Shown in pieces: positions 7,446 through 14,375 of a stretch of DNA of 39,279 nucleotides. Within the stretch, counting starts at the first letter, position 1. Each line of letters starts with the position of its first letter. The DNA comes from Vulcanimicrobiota bacterium (GTDB taxonomy: Bacteria; Vulcanimicrobiota; Vulcanimicrobiia; Vulcanimicrobiales; Vulcanimicrobiaceae): contig DAHUZB010000014.1 of the NCBI GenBank assembly GCA_027306785.1, positions 1 to 39,279 of the forward strand, given 5' to 3'. A program made the translations under genes and the position numbers. Under the pieces are notes generated by a model. The model had not been told where the DNA came from, made no database searches, and saw nothing but the letters and a program-made list of their open reading frames with translations.

Positions 7446-8882
7446 CTATCCGGCCAGGTATTCATAGAGCCCGTGCACGCCGCCCTCGCGGCCGAAGCCG
7501 GATTCGCGGTAGCCGCCGAAGGGCGAGGCCGGATCGAACTGGTTGAAGGTGTTGCACCAGACCACCCCCGCGCGCAACGCCTGCGCGACCCACATGTTCT
7601 TGCTGCCGGTATCGGTCCAAATGCCCGCGGAGAGGCCGTAGGGCGTATTGTTCGCTTTCTCGATCGCCTCGTCGGGCGTGCGGAAGGTGAGGATCGAGAG
7701 AACGGGTCCGAAGATCTCTTCGCGCGCGATGCGATGCGACTGCTGCACGCCCGTAAAGAACGAGGCGGGAAAGAAGAACCCGCGTTCGGGCAGCGTGCAC
7801 GGCTGCTGCACGAGTTCGGCGCCGTCGGCGATGCCGCTGCGCACCAGCTCGTCGATCTTCTCGAGCTGCGCGCGCGAATTGATCGCGCCGATATCGGTGT
7901 TCTTATCGAGCGGATCGCCGAGACGAAGCGTTGCGATGCGCTCGGTCAGCCGCGCGACGACCTCGTCGTGCACGCGCTCCTCGACGAGCAGGCGCGATCC
8001 GGCGCAGCAGACGTGACCTTGATTGAAATAGATGCCGTTGACCACGCCTTCGATCGCTTGATCGAGCGGTGCGTCGGCGAAGACGATGTGCGCGGCTTTG
8101 CCGCCGAGTTCGAGCGTGAGTCGCGTCCCGCTCCCCGCGAGACGGCGCGCGATCGTTTTGCCCACTTCGGTCGAACCGGTGAACGCGATCTTGTCGCAGC
8201 CGCCGTGCTCCACGAGCGCCGCGCCCGTCGCACCATCGCCGGGAATCACGTTCACGACGCCCGGCGGCAGATCGGCCTCTTGAACGATCTGCGCGAGCGC
8301 GAGCGCGGTGAGCGGCGTCGTCTCGGCGGGCTTGAGCACGACGGTATTTCCGCAGGCGAGCGCGGGCGCGATCTTCCACGCGGCCATGAGAAGCGGGAAG
8401 TTCCACGGCACGATCGCGCCGCAGACGCCGAGCGGCTCGGGCGTACGTCCGGCGCGCATCGCCCACTCGAGTTTGTCGGCCCATCCGGCGTAGTAAAAGA
8501 AGTGCGCCGCGGCGGTCGGGATGTCGAAGTCGCGCGACTCTTTGATCGGCGTGCCGCCGTCCATCGTCTCGAGCACGGCGAGCTCGCGGCCGCGTTCGGT
8601 AATCGCGCGCGCGATGCGAAAGATGTACTTCGCGCGATCGGCGGGTTTGAGCTTGCGCCAGTATTTCTCGTAGCCTTTGCGTGCGGCGCGAACCGCGCGA
8701 TCGACGTCGGCGGCGCTCGCGTAGGCGATCTCGGCCAAGCGTGCTTCGGTCGCCGGATCGATCGTCTCGAAGGTGCGGCCGTCCTGCGCCGCCTGCCACG
8801 CGCCGTCGATGAAGAGACCGTACCGCTCGCGCAGGTGCGGGCGCACGCTCTCGGGTGCGGGGGCGTACTCAAACGTCGTCAT
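7446..8882 (-). CDS. Aldehyde dehydrogenase (NAD(P)+-dependent)
   Basis: This 478-residue class 1/2-type aldehyde dehydrogenase oxidises an aldehyde to the acid. Catalytic residues are visible: N161 in PWNFPLL, E258 in LELGGKAAH, and C292 in GHVCCAGSR. The cofactor loop FTGSTEVGK is present near 234. The start at 8882 is supported by AAGGA seven bases upstream, lying inside the end of deoC. The reading frame stays open further upstream but that part is the shadow of deoC. The stop of deoC (8885) is 2 bases before this start, so the two are translationally coupled. A reasonable inference is that it oxidises the acetaldehyde made by DeoC, though betaine or aromatic aldehydes cannot be excluded. 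Confidence 0.94.
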
Positions 8883-8884
8883 CG

Positions 8885-9778
8885 TCAATCCTTCGGTATG
8901 TAGTCGGCGCCCGCATAACGGCCGGTCGCGAGCTTCTCGCGCTGCATCAAGAGATCGTCGAGCAGCGAACTCGCGCCGATGCGAAAGAAGTCGGGTTCGA
9001 GCCAGGCGCCGCCGAGCGTCTCGTTCACGATCACGAGATAGGTCAACGCCTGCTTGGTGGTGCGTACGCCGCCCGCGACCTTGAGGCCGCGCCGCTCGCC
9101 GGTACGTCGCGCGAAGTCGCGCAGCGCCTCGCACATCACGAGCGCGGTGGGAAAGGTGGCGTTGGTGCCGACCTTCCCGGTCGAGGTTTTGATGACGTCC
9201 GCCCCCGCCGCGAGCGCGAGATCGCTCGCGCGGCGGATATTCGCGTAGGTGCCGAGCTCGCCGGTCTCCAGAATCACTTTGAGGTGCACGGGGCCGCAGA
9301 GCGCTTTGACCGCGACGATCTCATCGAAGACCTTGCGTTCGTTGCCGCTCAGGAACGCGCCGCGATCGATCACCATGTCGATCTCGTCGGCGCCCGCCGC
9401 GATCGCCGCCGCGGTGTCGGCGAGCTTCACCTCGAGGCTCGAGAGGCCGCTCGGAAAAGCCGTGGCGACCGATGCGACGCGCACGCTGCCGCCGCGCAGC
9501 GCGTCTTTCGCGACCGCGACCAGATTCGGGTAGACGCAGACCGTCGCGACGCTCGGCGTATCGGGCCGGCTCGGCTGCGGCGTCATCGCCTTCGCGCAGA
9601 GCGAACGCACGCGACCCTCGGAGTCTTTGCCTTCGAGGGTCGTGAGATCGATGCAGCGGATCGCAAGATCGATTCCGACGCGTTTCGATTCGTTCTTGAT
9701 CGAGCGCTTGGCGAGCGCCGCGGCGCGTGCTTCGAGCATCACGGCGTCGACCGGAACCGTCGACATGATCCGGTGCAT
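8885..9778 (-). CDS. deoC: Deoxyribose-phosphate aldolase, DERA-like long type
   Basis: It cleaves 2-deoxyribose-5-phosphate to acetaldehyde and glyceraldehyde-3-phosphate in deoxynucleoside breakdown. Key residues are D134 in EIDMVID, Schiff-base K197 in VIKTSTGK, and K233 in LKVAGGVRT. At 297 residues it is longer than the E. coli enzyme. The IDLTTLEG entry motif, the ETGELGT segment and the LFRIG-like tail followed by TGRYA resemble the animal DERA form. The ATG at 9778 begins 2 bases after the HPPD stop; another in-frame ATG at 9766 is possible. With the aldehyde dehydrogenase downstream it forms a short route from deoxyribose phosphate to acetate. Confidence 0.93.
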   Translation of the reverse strand: MHRIMSTVPVDAVMLEARAAALAKRSIKNESKRVGIDLAIRCIDLTTLEGKDSEGRVRSLCAKAMTPQPSRPDTPSVATVCVYPNLVAVAKDALRGGSVRVASVATAFPSGLSSLEVKLADTAAAIAAGADEIDMVIDRGAFLSGNERKVFDEIVAVKALCGPVHLKVILETGELGTYANIRRASDLALAAGADVIKTSTGKVGTNATFPTALVMCEALRDFARRTGERRGLKVAGGVRTTKQALTYLVIVNETLGGAWLEPDFFRIGASSLLDDLLMQREKLATGRYAGADYIPKD

Positions 9779-9780
9779 GG

Positions 9781-10896
9781 TCAGAGCGTGCCGCGCTTCG
9801 CTTGCTCTTTTTCGATCGAGACGAAGAGCGCTTTGAAGTTGCCCTTCCCGAACGAGAGGCTGCCCTTGCGCTGAATGATCTCGAAGAAGACGGTCGGGCG
9901 ATCTTGCAGCGGCTTGGTGAAGATCTGCAGCATATAGCCCTGATCGTCGCGATCGACGAGGATGCGCCGCGCGCGCAGCACGTCGAGCGCTTCGTCGATC
10001 GCGCCGACGCGATCTTCGAGCATCTCGTAATACGACTCCGGCGTATCGAGGAATTCGACGCCGTTTGCTTTCAGAGCGTCGATCGTCGCGACGATATCGT
10101 CGGTGCGGATCGCGATATGCTGCACGCCCGCGCCGCGGTAGAAGTCGAGATACTCCTCGATCTGCGATTTCTTTTTGCCTTCGGCGGGTTCGTTGATCGG
10201 AAACTTCACCTGATGGCGCGGGTCGGTCATCACCTTCGACTTCAGCGCCGTGTATTCGGTCGAGATATCGTTGTCGTCGAACGAGACCAACTGCGAGAAA
10301 CCGAAGACGCGCGCGTAGAAGTCGCCCCACGCGTCCATCTCGCCCCAGCCCACGTTGCCGACGCAGTGATCGACGAACTGCAACTGCGGCGCTTTCGCGC
10401 CCGCGATCGAGCGACGCTCGGCGATGAAGCCCGGCATGAACGCGCCCGTGTACCCGTCGCGCTGGACGAATGAGTGCACGGTATCGCCGTAGGTCGCGAT
10501 CGTCGCCTTGACGATCCGACCGTGCTCGTCGCGCGACTCGGTGGGCGCGAGGACGCTGCGGGCTCCGCCCGCGATCGCCATCTCGTATGCGGCGCGTGCG
10601 TCCTCGACCAGAATCGCGACGTCTTTGACGCCGTCGCCGTGGAGCAACACGTGGCGCGCGATCTCGTCGTCGGGCAGCAAGCTCGCGGTGAGCACGAAGC
10701 GGAGCTTGTTCTGCGCGAGCACGTAGCTGCAGCGATTCTTGACGCCCGTCTCGGGGCCCGCGTAGGCCACCTGTTCGAATCCGAACGCGGACATATAGTA
10801 GTGCGCGGCCTGCTTGGCGTTGCCGACGTAGAATTCGATGTAATCCCAGTCGATGCGGGCGAGCGGATTGCTGCGCGCGGGTGTCGTCGTGCTCAT
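9781..10896 (-). CDS. hppD: 4-hydroxyphenylpyruvate dioxygenase
   Basis: HPPD converts 4-hydroxyphenylpyruvate to homogentisate, the second step of tyrosine breakdown. The 371-residue protein has two glyoxalase-fold halves. The 2-His-1-carboxylate iron site is complete: H177 (FVDHCVGN), H260 (GVQHIAI) and E339 (VFFEIIQRKG). The C-terminal helix region GKGNFKALF is typical. The gene is the first of a minus-strand run (HPPD, DeoC, aldehyde dehydrogenase) and is divergent from the unknown gene at 10977. The 80 bases between should hold both promoters, though I see no clear hexamers. Homogentisate dioxygenase and fumarylacetoacetase lie close by, confirming the pathway. Confidence 0.96.
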   Translation of the reverse strand: MSTTTPARSNPLARIDWDYIEFYVGNAKQAAHYYMSAFGFEQVAYAGPETGVKNRCSYVLAQNKLRFVLTASLLPDDEIARHVLLHGDGVKDVAILVEDARAAYEMAIAGGARSVLAPTESRDEHGRIVKATIATYGDTVHSFVQRDGYTGAFMPGFIAERRSIAGAKAPQLQFVDHCVGNVGWGEMDAWGDFYARVFGFSQLVSFDDNDISTEYTALKSKVMTDPRHQVKFPINEPAEGKKKSQIEEYLDFYRGAGVQHIAIRTDDIVATIDALKANGVEFLDTPESYYEMLEDRVGAIDEALDVLRARRILVDRDDQGYMLQIFTKPLQDRPTVFFEIIQRKGSLSFGKGNFKALFVSIEKEQAKRGTL

Positions 10897-10965: not shown

Positions 10966-10971
10966 AAGGAG
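10966..10971 (+). promoter_or_regulatory. Shine-Dalgarno site of the unknown gene at 10977
   Basis: AAGGAG lies five bases before the ATG at 10977. It fixes this start even though the frame is open further upstream, across the divergent HPPD gene. Confidence 0.7.
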
Positions 10972-10976
10972 CCGCA

Positions 10977-11927
10977 ATGACTCTCTCCACGCATCCCGCT
11001 GCGAGCCTCTCGGCCGCGCTCGGCGGCCTGATCGACTACGCCGGACTCTTTCCGCCCGCGCGCCTGGAAATGGCGCCCGCCGTCGCGGAGTACGCGCAGG
11101 CGCGGGCCGGAGCGCACGCCTGGATGCTCGGCCGGTTCATCGTTCCCGCCTCGCGCTTGGGCGAGCTGCGCGACGCGCTCGCCGCCGAGCAGCCGCCGCT
11201 GCCGCTCAGCGTGATCGTCGATGCGCCGAGCGATGCGCGCGCGTGGTTCGGCGCGGTCCGGCAGATCCTCGCGCGTCTCGAGGCGCTGCGGGCGGAGCCG
11301 CGCTTCACCATCGAGGCGCTCGAAGTGCCGTTGCCGCGATTGACGGGCGAGCGCGAGACCTACGACGGCACGATCGGCCAGTTTGCGATGCTCGCCGAGA
11401 CGCACGGCCTGCGCGGGCTGCCCATCTTCGTGGAGCTTCCGACGGGAGGCGAACGCGCGGATCTGCTCGCCGGGGCGATGGCCGCGCTCGGGCGCCATCG
11501 TCTGCACGCCAAGCTGCGCTGCGGCGGCATCACGGCCGACGCCTTTCCGAGCGTCGATGCGGTCGCGGCGTTTGTCACGGCCGCGGCGGAGGCGGGCGTC
11601 GCGTTCAAGGCGACCGCGGGCCTGCATCATCCCATTCGTCACGTTGACGCGGCGACCGGGTTTCCGATGCACGGATTTCTGAATCTGCTCGCGGCTGCGG
11701 CGTTCGTCGATCGCGGCGACGGGGCGACGCTGCGTGCCGTCCTCGCCGAGAAGTCGGCGAGCGCGTTCGCCCTCGACGGCGACGGGCTACGCGTGGGCGA
11801 TCTGCTCGCCGGGCCCGATGCGCTGCGCGAGATGCGCGGCGCGCGCTTCTTCGGATACGGCAGTTGCAGCTTCGCGGAGCCGATCGCCGATCTCACCGCT
11901 CTTCACATCCTGCCCGCAAGCGAGTAA
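10977..11927 (+). CDS. Uncharacterised protein of the tyrosine-catabolism locus, barrel-like
   Basis: 316 residues; I do not recognise a named family. The sequence shows a repeating strand-helix pattern with acidic or basic residues at strand ends: VIVDAP (80-84), ALEVPLP (114-120), IFVELP (150-155), HAKLRCGG (177-184), FKATAGLHHPI (210-220) and FGYGSCSF (292-299). E116, E153, K179, R181, K211 and H217/H218 would face one end of a TIM-like barrel, resembling an aldolase or isomerase active site. There is no signal peptide. The gene ends two bases before the fumarylacetoacetase GTG and is probably co-translated with it. The position suggests a role with homogentisate or maleylacetoacetate. The fold and function are inference only. 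Confidence 0.8.
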   Translation: MTLSTHPAASLSAALGGLIDYAGLFPPARLEMAPAVAEYAQARAGAHAWMLGRFIVPASRLGELRDALAAEQPPLPLSVIVDAPSDARAWFGAVRQILARLEALRAEPRFTIEALEVPLPRLTGERETYDGTIGQFAMLAETHGLRGLPIFVELPTGGERADLLAGAMAALGRHRLHAKLRCGGITADAFPSVDAVAAFVTAAAEAGVAFKATAGLHHPIRHVDAATGFPMHGFLNLLAAAAFVDRGDGATLRAVLAEKSASAFALDGDGLRVGDLLAGPDALREMRGARFFGYGSCSFAEPIADLTALHILPASE

Positions 11928-11929
11928 CC

Positions 11930-13201
11930 GTGCCGCACATCGAATCCTGGGTTCCCGTTCCCGCCGGGAGCGATTTTTCGATCTACAACCTGCCGTACGG
12001 CGCGTTTTCTCGCCCGGTTTCGCCCGCGCGCCTCGGCATCGCGATCGGCACGCAGATCCTCGATCTCCACGCCGTCGCGTCGGCCGGATTGCTCGACGAC
12101 ATCTGCGATCGGCGCGTCTTTCTCGGCGGCACGCTCAACGCGTTTCTCGCCGAAGGTCGCGAGGTGTGGCGGCGCACACGCCTACGCATCGCCGCGCTCT
12201 TGCGAACCGACGAGGCGGGCGATCCGCGGCTGCGCGCGCTCGACACCGCGAAGTTTTTGGTGAACCAGCGCGACGTGCGCATGCTGCTGCCGATCGAGAT
12301 CGGCGACTACGTCGATTTCTATTCGTCGATCGAGCACGCGACCAACCTCGGGCGCATCTTTCGACCGAACGGCGAACCGCTGATGGAGAACTGGCGTCAC
12401 CTGCCGATCGGCTATCACGGTCGCGCGAGTACGGTGGTGATCGACGGCACGCCGGTCGTGCGTCCGAGCGGTCAACGCCGACCGCCCGGCAGCAGCGCGC
12501 CGGTCTTCGGGCCGTCGACGCGACTCGATATCGAACTCGAGATCGGCTTCGTCACCGGGCCGGGCAACGCGATGGGCACCGCGATTCCGACCAGCCGCGC
12601 GCGCGAGCACATCTTCGGACTCGTGCTCGTGAACGACTGGAGCGCGCGCGATATCCAAGCCTGGGAGTATCAGCCGCTCGGCCCGTTCCTCGGCAAATCG
12701 TTCGCGACCACCGTCTCGCCCTGGATCGTGCCGCTCGACGCGCTCGACCCCTTCGCGCTGCCGAGTCCCGCGCAGGATCCGCAGCCGCTGCCGTATCTAC
12801 AGGCGGGCGGCCGTTGGGCGTACGACATCAACCTCGAGGTCGATCTGCAAACCAAACGGATGCGCGACGCCGGCATCGCGCCGCAGACGATCTCGCGCAC
12901 GAACTACAAAGAGCTGTATTGGAATATGGCGCAGCAGCTCGCGCACGTGACGATCAACGGCACCGCGATTCGCCCGGGCGATCTCTATGCGTCGGGGACG
13001 ATCAGCGGCAGCACGGCCGACAGTTGCGGAAGCCTGATCGAACTCACGTGGAACGGTGAGCGCCCGATCGTGCTGCCCGACGGCGAGCGCCGGACGTTCC
13101 TCGAGGACGGCGATACGATCGCGCTGCGCGGCTGGTGCGCGGCGGGCGATTTTCGCATCGGATTCGGATCGGCGCGCGGGACGATTTCGCCCGCGCGCTG
13201 A
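11930..13201 (+). CDS. fahA: Fumarylacetoacetase
   Basis: FAH hydrolyses fumarylacetoacetate to fumarate and acetoacetate, the last step of tyrosine breakdown. The 423-residue protein matches the length of mammalian FAH (about 420). Metal and catalytic positions are visible: D129 and H136 in DFYSSIEHATNLG, E202 and E204 in DIELEIGF, and D236 in VNDWSARDIQ. A SH3-like N-terminal domain precedes residue 120. I chose the GTG at 11930 because it gives the family length and lies right after the previous stop; the open frame upstream lies inside the unknown gene. The gene converges on homogentisate dioxygenase with only 7 bases between the stops and no terminator hairpin. Confidence 0.96.
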   Translation: MPHIESWVPVPAGSDFSIYNLPYGAFSRPVSPARLGIAIGTQILDLHAVASAGLLDDICDRRVFLGGTLNAFLAEGREVWRRTRLRIAALLRTDEAGDPRLRALDTAKFLVNQRDVRMLLPIEIGDYVDFYSSIEHATNLGRIFRPNGEPLMENWRHLPIGYHGRASTVVIDGTPVVRPSGQRRPPGSSAPVFGPSTRLDIELEIGFVTGPGNAMGTAIPTSRAREHIFGLVLVNDWSARDIQAWEYQPLGPFLGKSFATTVSPWIVPLDALDPFALPSPAQDPQPLPYLQAGGRWAYDINLEVDLQTKRMRDAGIAPQTISRTNYKELYWNMAQQLAHVTINGTAIRPGDLYASGTISGSTADSCGSLIELTWNGERPIVLPDGERRTFLEDGDTIALRGWCAAGDFRIGFGSARGTISPAR

Positions 13202-13208
13202 TTCCGCG

Positions 13209-14375
13209 TCAGCGCGTCGCGGGCGCCTCGATCCAGGAGCGATAATAGGCGGCGTCTTCGACGTCGATCGCGCTCTGCGCCACGTGCAGCGGTTTGAAGG
13301 TATCGACCATCACCGCGATCTCGTCGGTTCCCGTCTTGCCGAGGCTGCCCTCGACGGCGCCGGGCTGCGGTCCGTGCGGCGCGCCCGCGGCGTGCAGCGT
13401 GATCGAGCCCTCTTCCACGCCGCGACGGCTCATGAAGTTGCCGCTCACGTAGTAGAGCACTTCGTCGCAGTCGACGCTCGAGTGGTTGTACGGCACCGGC
13501 ACGGCAAGCGGATGATAATCGAAGAGCCGCGGAACGAACGCGCAGAAGGCCGCCCCGGGCGCTTCGAACGTCGCGTGCGCGGGCGGCGGCTGGTGCAGCT
13601 TGCCGGTGATCGGAGCGAACTCTTCGAGATTGAACGCGTAGGGATAGCAGTATCCGTCCCACCCGATCACGTCGCAGGGATGGTTCTCCACGAGGTAGAT
13701 CGCGTGGCGGCCGCGATTGCTCACGCGCACTTCGTGCTCGCCGCGATCGTCGACCGGCCCTTTGAGGAGCGGCGTGCGGAAATCGCGCTCGTAGTACGGC
13801 GCGTGCTCTTCGAGCTGACCGAATTCGTTGCGATACTTGCGCGGAATCTTGACGGCGCCCGACGATTCGTGCACGAGCATGCGCGTCGGCGCGGCGGGCA
13901 GCACGCGATAGGTGGTACCGGTGGGAATCACCAGGTAATCGTGCGCGCGATATGCGAGCTCGCCGAAGGGCGTTTCGATCGTGCCCGCACCCTCGTGGAT
14001 GAACAGCAGTTCGTCGCCGCTCGTGTTGCGATACCAGTAGTGCATCGGACGATCCGCGTGCGCGATCGAGATCAGCAGATCGTCGTTCCCGAGCAGCGCT
14101 CGGCGCGACTCGAGCGCGTCACCGCTCGTCTCTACGTGCGCGACCTTGAAGTGGCGATTGCGCAGCGGATCGTTGGGCAGCAGCGTGACGCCCGGACGAT
14201 CCCAGGGACGAACCTCGAGCGTCGCGGTGGGCGGACGCAGGTGATAGAGCAGCGAGTAGACGCTCTCGAAGCCCTTGGTGGAGAAGAGTTCCTCCGCGTA
14301 GAGTCCGCCGTCGGGACGGCGAAACTGAATGTGGCGCTTGTGCGGCAGCGAGCCTGCGCGAACGTACGAGGGCAT
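13209..14375 (-). CDS. hmgA: Homogentisate 1,2-dioxygenase
   Basis: It opens the ring of homogentisate to maleylacetoacetate using Fe(II) and O2. The 388-residue protein is shorter than the human enzyme (445). Likely iron ligands are H298 and E305 in NHSSVDCDEVLYY and H334 in APHGPQPG; in human HGO the His-Glu spacing is one residue shorter, so this belongs to a divergent bacterial subgroup. The ribosome-binding sequence AGGAG overlaps the end of the CDGSH gene just upstream, so translation of the two is coupled. The enzyme, HPPD and fumarylacetoacetase make the pathway complete except for the isomerase step. Confidence 0.93.
   Translation of the reverse strand: MPSYVRAGSLPHKRHIQFRRPDGGLYAEELFSTKGFESVYSLLYHLRPPTATLEVRPWDRPGVTLLPNDPLRNRHFKVAHVETSGDALESRRALLGNDDLLISIAHADRPMHYWYRNTSGDELLFIHEGAGTIETPFGELAYRAHDYLVIPTGTTYRVLPAAPTRMLVHESSGAVKIPRKYRNEFGQLEEHAPYYERDFRTPLLKGPVDDRGEHEVRVSNRGRHAIYLVENHPCDVIGWDGYCYPYAFNLEEFAPITGKLHQPPPAHATFEAPGAAFCAFVPRLFDYHPLAVPVPYNHSSVDCDEVLYYVSGNFMSRRGVEEGSITLHAAGAPHGPQPGAVEGSLGKTGTDEIAVMVDTFKPLHVAQSAIDVEDAAYYRSWIEAPATR

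Follow-up and report, generated by a model that had tools for sequence, protein, structure and literature searches.

A predicted TIM-barrel protein family encoded beside fumarylacetoacetase as a candidate glutathione-independent maleylacetoacetate isomerase

INTRODUCTION

How is maleylacetoacetate (MAA) isomerized at a homogentisate locus that carries no isomerase gene? The window (the whole 39,279-nucleotide stretch of DNA analyzed here) raises this question. It encodes 4-hydroxyphenylpyruvate dioxygenase (HPPD; 9781 to 10896, minus strand; TIGR01263, 456 bits), fumarylacetoacetase (FAH, fahA; 11930 to 13201, plus strand; TIGR01266, 530.8 bits against a cutoff of 375; PF01557 and PF09298), and a homogentisate 1,2-dioxygenase of a short, divergent type (13209 to 14375, minus strand; PF20510, E value of 1.7e-10; TIGR01015, 59.7 bits and so below the cutoff of 510.75), which converges on FAH from downstream. 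A homologue of this short dioxygenase is annotated as that enzyme in Priestia relatives. These three genes mark the region as a locus for tyrosine/homogentisate catabolism, one that has no isomerase gene.

Such a gap has already been recognized. In Bacillus anthracis, HPPD, FAH, and HmgA are found in one operon, a maleylacetoacetate isomerase gene is not identifiable, and the fate of MAA in such homogentisate breakdown has been called unclear (PMC4457819). As cited in PMC4457819, Crawford 1976 is reported to show that some Bacillus hydrolyze MAA directly, so that a rival solution, in which FAH or another hydrolase acts on MAA, is also backed. This was the sole relevant paper on a thiol-free or missing MAA isomerase in the open-access literature, the only text searchable, and we found no description there of the protein family examined below.

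RESULTS

An unnamed protein family precedes FAH in bacteria and archaea. Between HPPD, its divergent upstream neighbor, and FAH lies the gene for P0001 (10977 to 11927, plus strand), which has an ATG at 10977 and a TAA at 11925 to 11927 and translates to 316 amino acids. A Shine-Dalgarno-like AAGGAG, read directly at 10966 to 10971 on the plus strand 5' of the gene, was rated a good to strong ribosome binding site. The GTG start of FAH at 11930 is two bases past the P0001 stop, the arrangement that a first-pass annotation of this DNA had described. P0001 matched no Pfam, NCBIfam, or PHROGs model and no PDB sequence.

A scan of genome contigs recovered at least 575 confirmed relatives of P0001. 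The best 80 of these, by the taxon names recorded with the sequences, came from Eremiobacterota, Actinobacteria, Armatimonadetes, Bacillota, Cyanobacteria (Nostoc), Acidobacteria, Gemmatimonadetes, Bacteroidetes, Planctomycetes, Chloroflexi, and Calditrichaeota and, among the archaea, Marine Group III and Heimdallarchaeota. None of 78 diverse members had a Pfam or NCBIfam match at an E value of 0.01, and the family profile gave only chance matches against the PDB. Members in named plasmid records are annotated as "hypothetical protein." The P0001 family thus has no name in these databases and is present in bacteria and archaea.

Within the best 80 of the at least 575 relatives, the family gene was directly 5' of FAH at 70 of the 80 loci scanned; a 4-base overlap was the commonest spacing at the 70 linked loci, as given by automatic start choice. 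This gene order was seen in Eremiobacterota, Acidobacteria, Actinobacteria, Bacillota, Gemmatimonadetes, Bacteroidetes, Planctomycetes, Chloroflexi, and archaea. Plasmids of Rhodococcus and Pseudonocardia have the order hmgA-gene-fahA, and Priestia has hppD-gene-fahA-hisC-hmgA. Conservation across phyla of the protein, and of its place ahead of FAH, excludes chance. Among the unlinked loci, one (L078) has FAH 2.8 kb downstream, two (L089 and L111) are cut by a contig end, and the remainder have FAH elsewhere in the genome. Fusions of the family protein with FAH were searched for and none was found.

Several neighborhoods have features of their own. The short divergent homogentisate dioxygenase is common to the window, Priestia, and many P0001 family loci, and a classical type is present at several Acidobacteria loci with the family. 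Beside HPPD in the window is a DeoC aldolase (8885 to 9790, minus strand) with an aldehyde dehydrogenase (7446 to 8888, minus strand), a pair that probably serves deoxyribose use; DeoC is kept adjoining HPPD at 14 Eremiobacterota loci. At the Heimdallarchaeota locus L106 (genome G188), the family gene is not beside FAH, which is elsewhere in that genome, and lies directly before a 365-amino-acid ORF and after a 374-amino-acid ORF that by eye resembles enolase.

The family co-occurs with FAH across genomes. FAH scored over the cutoff in all 50 sampled genomes carrying a P0001 family gene. In the window's phylum (149 genomes, with FAH fragments at contig edges scored as present), 91 genomes had both FAH and the gene, 8 had FAH only, 1 had the gene only, and 49 had neither. 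The corresponding counts in a second phylum, that of genome G156 (Acidobacteriota, with L078 and L101 as members; 237 genomes), were 42, 9, 1, and 185. Fisher P values were 1.1e-29 for the window's phylum and 1.5e-36 for the second, uncorrected for the relatedness of the genomes. In both gene-only genomes the gene sits at a contig edge, as a fragment in G032 of the window's phylum and at the edge in G390 of the second. Several genomes of the second phylum keep both genes far apart or on separate contigs; since the genes co-occur even when unlinked, the association reflects more than operon inheritance. Distance-matrix correlations with the P0001 family were alike for FAH (r, 0.71), HPPD (0.72), and HmgA (0.80), and FAH is therefore not singled out among the three. 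Linkage and co-occurrence place the P0001 family in the homogentisate pathway.

MaiA is absent where the family is found. The first-pass annotation had observed that the locus lacks a GST-type isomerase. This extends to the genome: MaiA (TIGR01262 over the cutoff) was absent from the window's whole genome, which is 96.4% complete, and its absence is therefore not merely a gap in the locus. MaiA over the cutoff was likewise found in 0 of 50 genomes with a P0001 family gene and in 0 of 149 genomes of the window's phylum. Among the 237 genomes of the second phylum, it was found in one genome only, which carries neither FAH nor a P0001 family gene. The genome-wide checks that the same annotation had proposed, on an isomerase and on co-occurrence, thus found no isomerase elsewhere and the gene without FAH only in the two contig-edge cases.

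Our survey of MaiA-rich phyla for the P0001 family gene covered plasmids. FAH was present on 119 plasmid records and the family gene on 24, which by genus were actinobacterial, Priestia, or cyanobacterial and in no case proteobacterial. On Sphingobium and Acinetobacter plasmids, it is MaiA that adjoins fahA.

Glutathione synthetase (TIGR01380), the one route to glutathione covered here, was not found in the window's genome, and among the 50 genomes with the gene it was over the cutoff in two only, each from Nostoc. A GST-type isomerase would be unworkable without glutathione, which gives a rationale for its replacement by the P0001 family. The Nostoc loci (L065 and L073) keep the gene despite glutathione synthetase, with HPPD and HmgA nearby, and at L065 the gene follows an ORF that by eye resembles an AsnC-type regulator.

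Some FAH genomes have neither isomerase. Among the 150 FAH genomes of the two phyla, 17 (8 and 9, respectively) had neither a P0001 family gene nor MaiA. HPPD or HmgA lies beside FAH in some of these genomes, and no alternative isomerase was recognized beside FAH in the 17. HPPD adjoins FAH at five such loci (L143 to L147, in G301, G361, G353, G292, and G345), and a protein with the motif FLMCPPKxYDVNYVINPWM is encoded nearby in four of these genomes. Together with B. anthracis, in which MaiA is reportedly not identifiable, the exceptions imply that the pathway may run without a dedicated isomerase or that a third solution exists; the 17 genomes may be of the direct MAA hydrolysis type. They weaken the view that the pathway always requires an isomerase and leave untouched the view that the P0001 family gene is an isomerase.

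Invariant residues map to a predicted TIM barrel. The first-pass annotation had singled out E116, E153, K179, R181, K211, H217, and H218 as the pattern of a TIM-barrel active site. All seven are at those positions and are invariant in alignments of 27 and 78 sequences, as are three residues that it had not listed, D20, N236, and C297; R287 is nearly invariant in the 78-sequence alignment. Among the rows examined, D20, E153, K179, K211, N236, and R287 had no substitution, and C297 was replaced in a single divergent gene only (G077, fetched twice, as L118 and L128). That copy, directly before FAH, lacks R181, H217, H218, and C297 and retains D20, E153, K179, K211, N236, and R287. This enzyme is either decayed or altered, and it serves as a natural experiment on the importance of individual residues.

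The AlphaFold2 model of P0001, built from the 78-sequence alignment, is a TIM barrel (pLDDT, 95.7; pTM, 0.93), and the barrel proposed earlier is borne out by this confident prediction, with the seven named residues at or just after strands 4 to 7. DSSP assigned the eight strands to residues 19 to 21, 51 to 57, 75 to 80, 110 to 118, 150 to 153, 177 to 181, 210 to 213, and 291 to 296. In the model, D20 is on strand 1, E116 on strand 4, E153 on strand 5, K179 on strand 6, and K211 on strand 7. On the plus strand of the window, counting codons from 10977, K179-x-R181 at the end of strand 6 is encoded at 11511 to 11519, and K211-x-T213 through H217-H218, on strand 7 and its loop, at 11607 to 11630. 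Cys297, in a GSCS motif just after strand 8, has its codon at 11865 to 11867.

The top Foldseek match in the PDB was the deoxyribose-phosphate aldolase 1n7k (E value, 3.9e-4; probability, 1.00), the only match with an E value below 0.001. The next matches were mostly deoxyribose-phosphate aldolase (DERA) entries and DERA-based designs, with query-normalized TM-scores of about 0.42 to 0.53. In a model of the window's own DeoC, D48, D138, K201, and K237, which we take to be the equivalents of E. coli DERA D16, D102, K167, and K201, are in strands 1, 4, 6, and 7, the same strands as D20, E116, K179, and K211 of P0001. Sequence homology to DERA was also considered; hhalign gave a probability of 0.7% against a shallow DeoC alignment, and homology is not claimed. 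The Lys chemistry proposed below is therefore drawn by analogy of fold.

DISCUSSION

From its genomic context, P0001 is probably a glutathione-independent maleylacetoacetate isomerase that replaces the GST-zeta enzyme MaiA. The first-pass annotation had suggested a cofactor-free isomerase, and on genomic context this is well supported as the best role for the protein. In MaiA, glutathione adds to the alkene, the bond rotates, and glutathione leaves. For P0001, we find it plausible, with the arguments evenly balanced, that a Lys iminium and a built-in Cys nucleophile isomerize MAA without a thiol cofactor in a DERA-like barrel family.

The reaction itself, and every chemical step in it, we infer as follows. 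P0001 would turn the HmgA product MAA (cis) into fumarylacetoacetate (trans), which the cotranslated FAH would then hydrolyze. Lys179, the proposed Schiff-base residue, or Lys211 would form an iminium with the C4 ketone of MAA, next to the cis double bond, and this iminium would be a stronger acceptor than the ketone. The thiol of Cys297, the proposed nucleophile, would add reversibly to the activated alkene in place of glutathione; the former double bond would rotate as a single bond, and the trans isomer would form as the thiol departs. Arg181 and His217/218 may hold the carboxylates, and E116, E153, and D20 may shuttle protons. Engineered DERA entries such as 7p76, which performs iminium-activated conjugate addition and was among the PDB fold matches, indicate that a DERA barrel is able to carry out such chemistry. 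Metal-based chemistry is an alternative, in which Glu, Cys, and the His pair would be the ligands.

Other roles for P0001 have to be weighed against isomerization of MAA. It could be some other homogentisate pathway enzyme, acting on a side product such as succinylacetone or maleylacetone, in Schiff-base decarboxylation or cleavage of a beta-keto acid, or on acetoacetate. A DERA-like Lys pair would fit beta-dicarbonyl chemistry, and linkage to FAH alone leaves the step unfixed, but such a role leaves the MAA step empty in 50 of 50 genomes that have FAH and lack MaiA. An enzyme for a side reaction should, moreover, also turn up alongside MaiA, a pairing that neither the 50 genomes nor the two phyla showed, and we consider this role unlikely. 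It is somewhat less likely still that FAH hydrolyzes MAA without prior isomerization, yielding maleate and acetoacetate, and that P0001 isomerizes or hydrates the maleate, even though the Bacillus report (Crawford 1976, via PMC4457819) and the existence of FAH-only genomes speak for direct hydrolysis. An invariant Cys would suit a cofactor-free maleate isomerase, but maleate offers no ketone to the conserved Lys pair. The specificity of FAH would also have to change in every lineage, and FAH is well over its equivalog cutoff in all 50 genomes.

In many phyla the gene is tightly coupled to FAH in translation, which might instead point to a catalytic or noncatalytic partner of FAH, such as a chaperone, a complex subunit, or a channeling scaffold. 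This is the least probable of the roles considered, and we give it very little credence: the barrel strands carry a full set of invariant polar residues at their C-terminal ends, several genomes have the gene and FAH at separate places, the fusion search was negative, and FAH functions without the P0001 family in organisms with MaiA.

If P0001 is a glutathione-independent MAA isomerase, it accounts for the step missing from tyrosine breakdown in prokaryotes that lack glutathione, with one gene filling the gap in most genomes examined. Confirmation would give the "hypothetical protein" of very many genomes a correct annotation and add a new fold to the cis-trans isomerases. It would also provide a naturally occurring DERA-like barrel that performs iminium-activated conjugate addition, a chemistry that DERA has so far acquired through laboratory engineering.

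Among known systems, DERA/DeoC resembles P0001 in providing the best PDB fold match and in having an Asp on strand 1, an acid on strand 4, and Lys residues on strands 6 and 7. P0001 differs from it in having Glu for Asp on strand 4 and the additional invariant E153, R181, His pair, and C297, and it has no profile or sequence similarity to that family, no membership in it, and no expected link to deoxyribose. The mycothiol-dependent maleylpyruvate isomerase (MDMPI) of Actinobacteria performs a cis-trans isomerization without glutathione in an analogous ring-cleavage pathway; P0001 differs in fold, MDMPI needs mycothiol, and its Pfam model was unmatched by all 78 family members. Maleate cis-trans isomerase, of the Asp/Glu racemase superfamily, is cofactor free and has a catalytic Cys but a different fold, and neither the Pfam nor the PDB sequence search linked P0001 to it. 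MaiA (GST zeta, TIGR01262) shares with P0001 the proposed reaction, the position in the pathway, and a gene beside FAH. P0001 and its 77 relatives had no NCBIfam match and hence none to TIGR01262, and the eight-stranded barrel of the model is not the thioredoxin-like and helical fold of a GST. MaiA is a glutathione-dependent enzyme of about 210 amino acids with that GST fold, whereas P0001 is a predicted 316-amino-acid TIM barrel, without sequence relation to MaiA, from a family whose genomes mostly lack glutathione synthetase.
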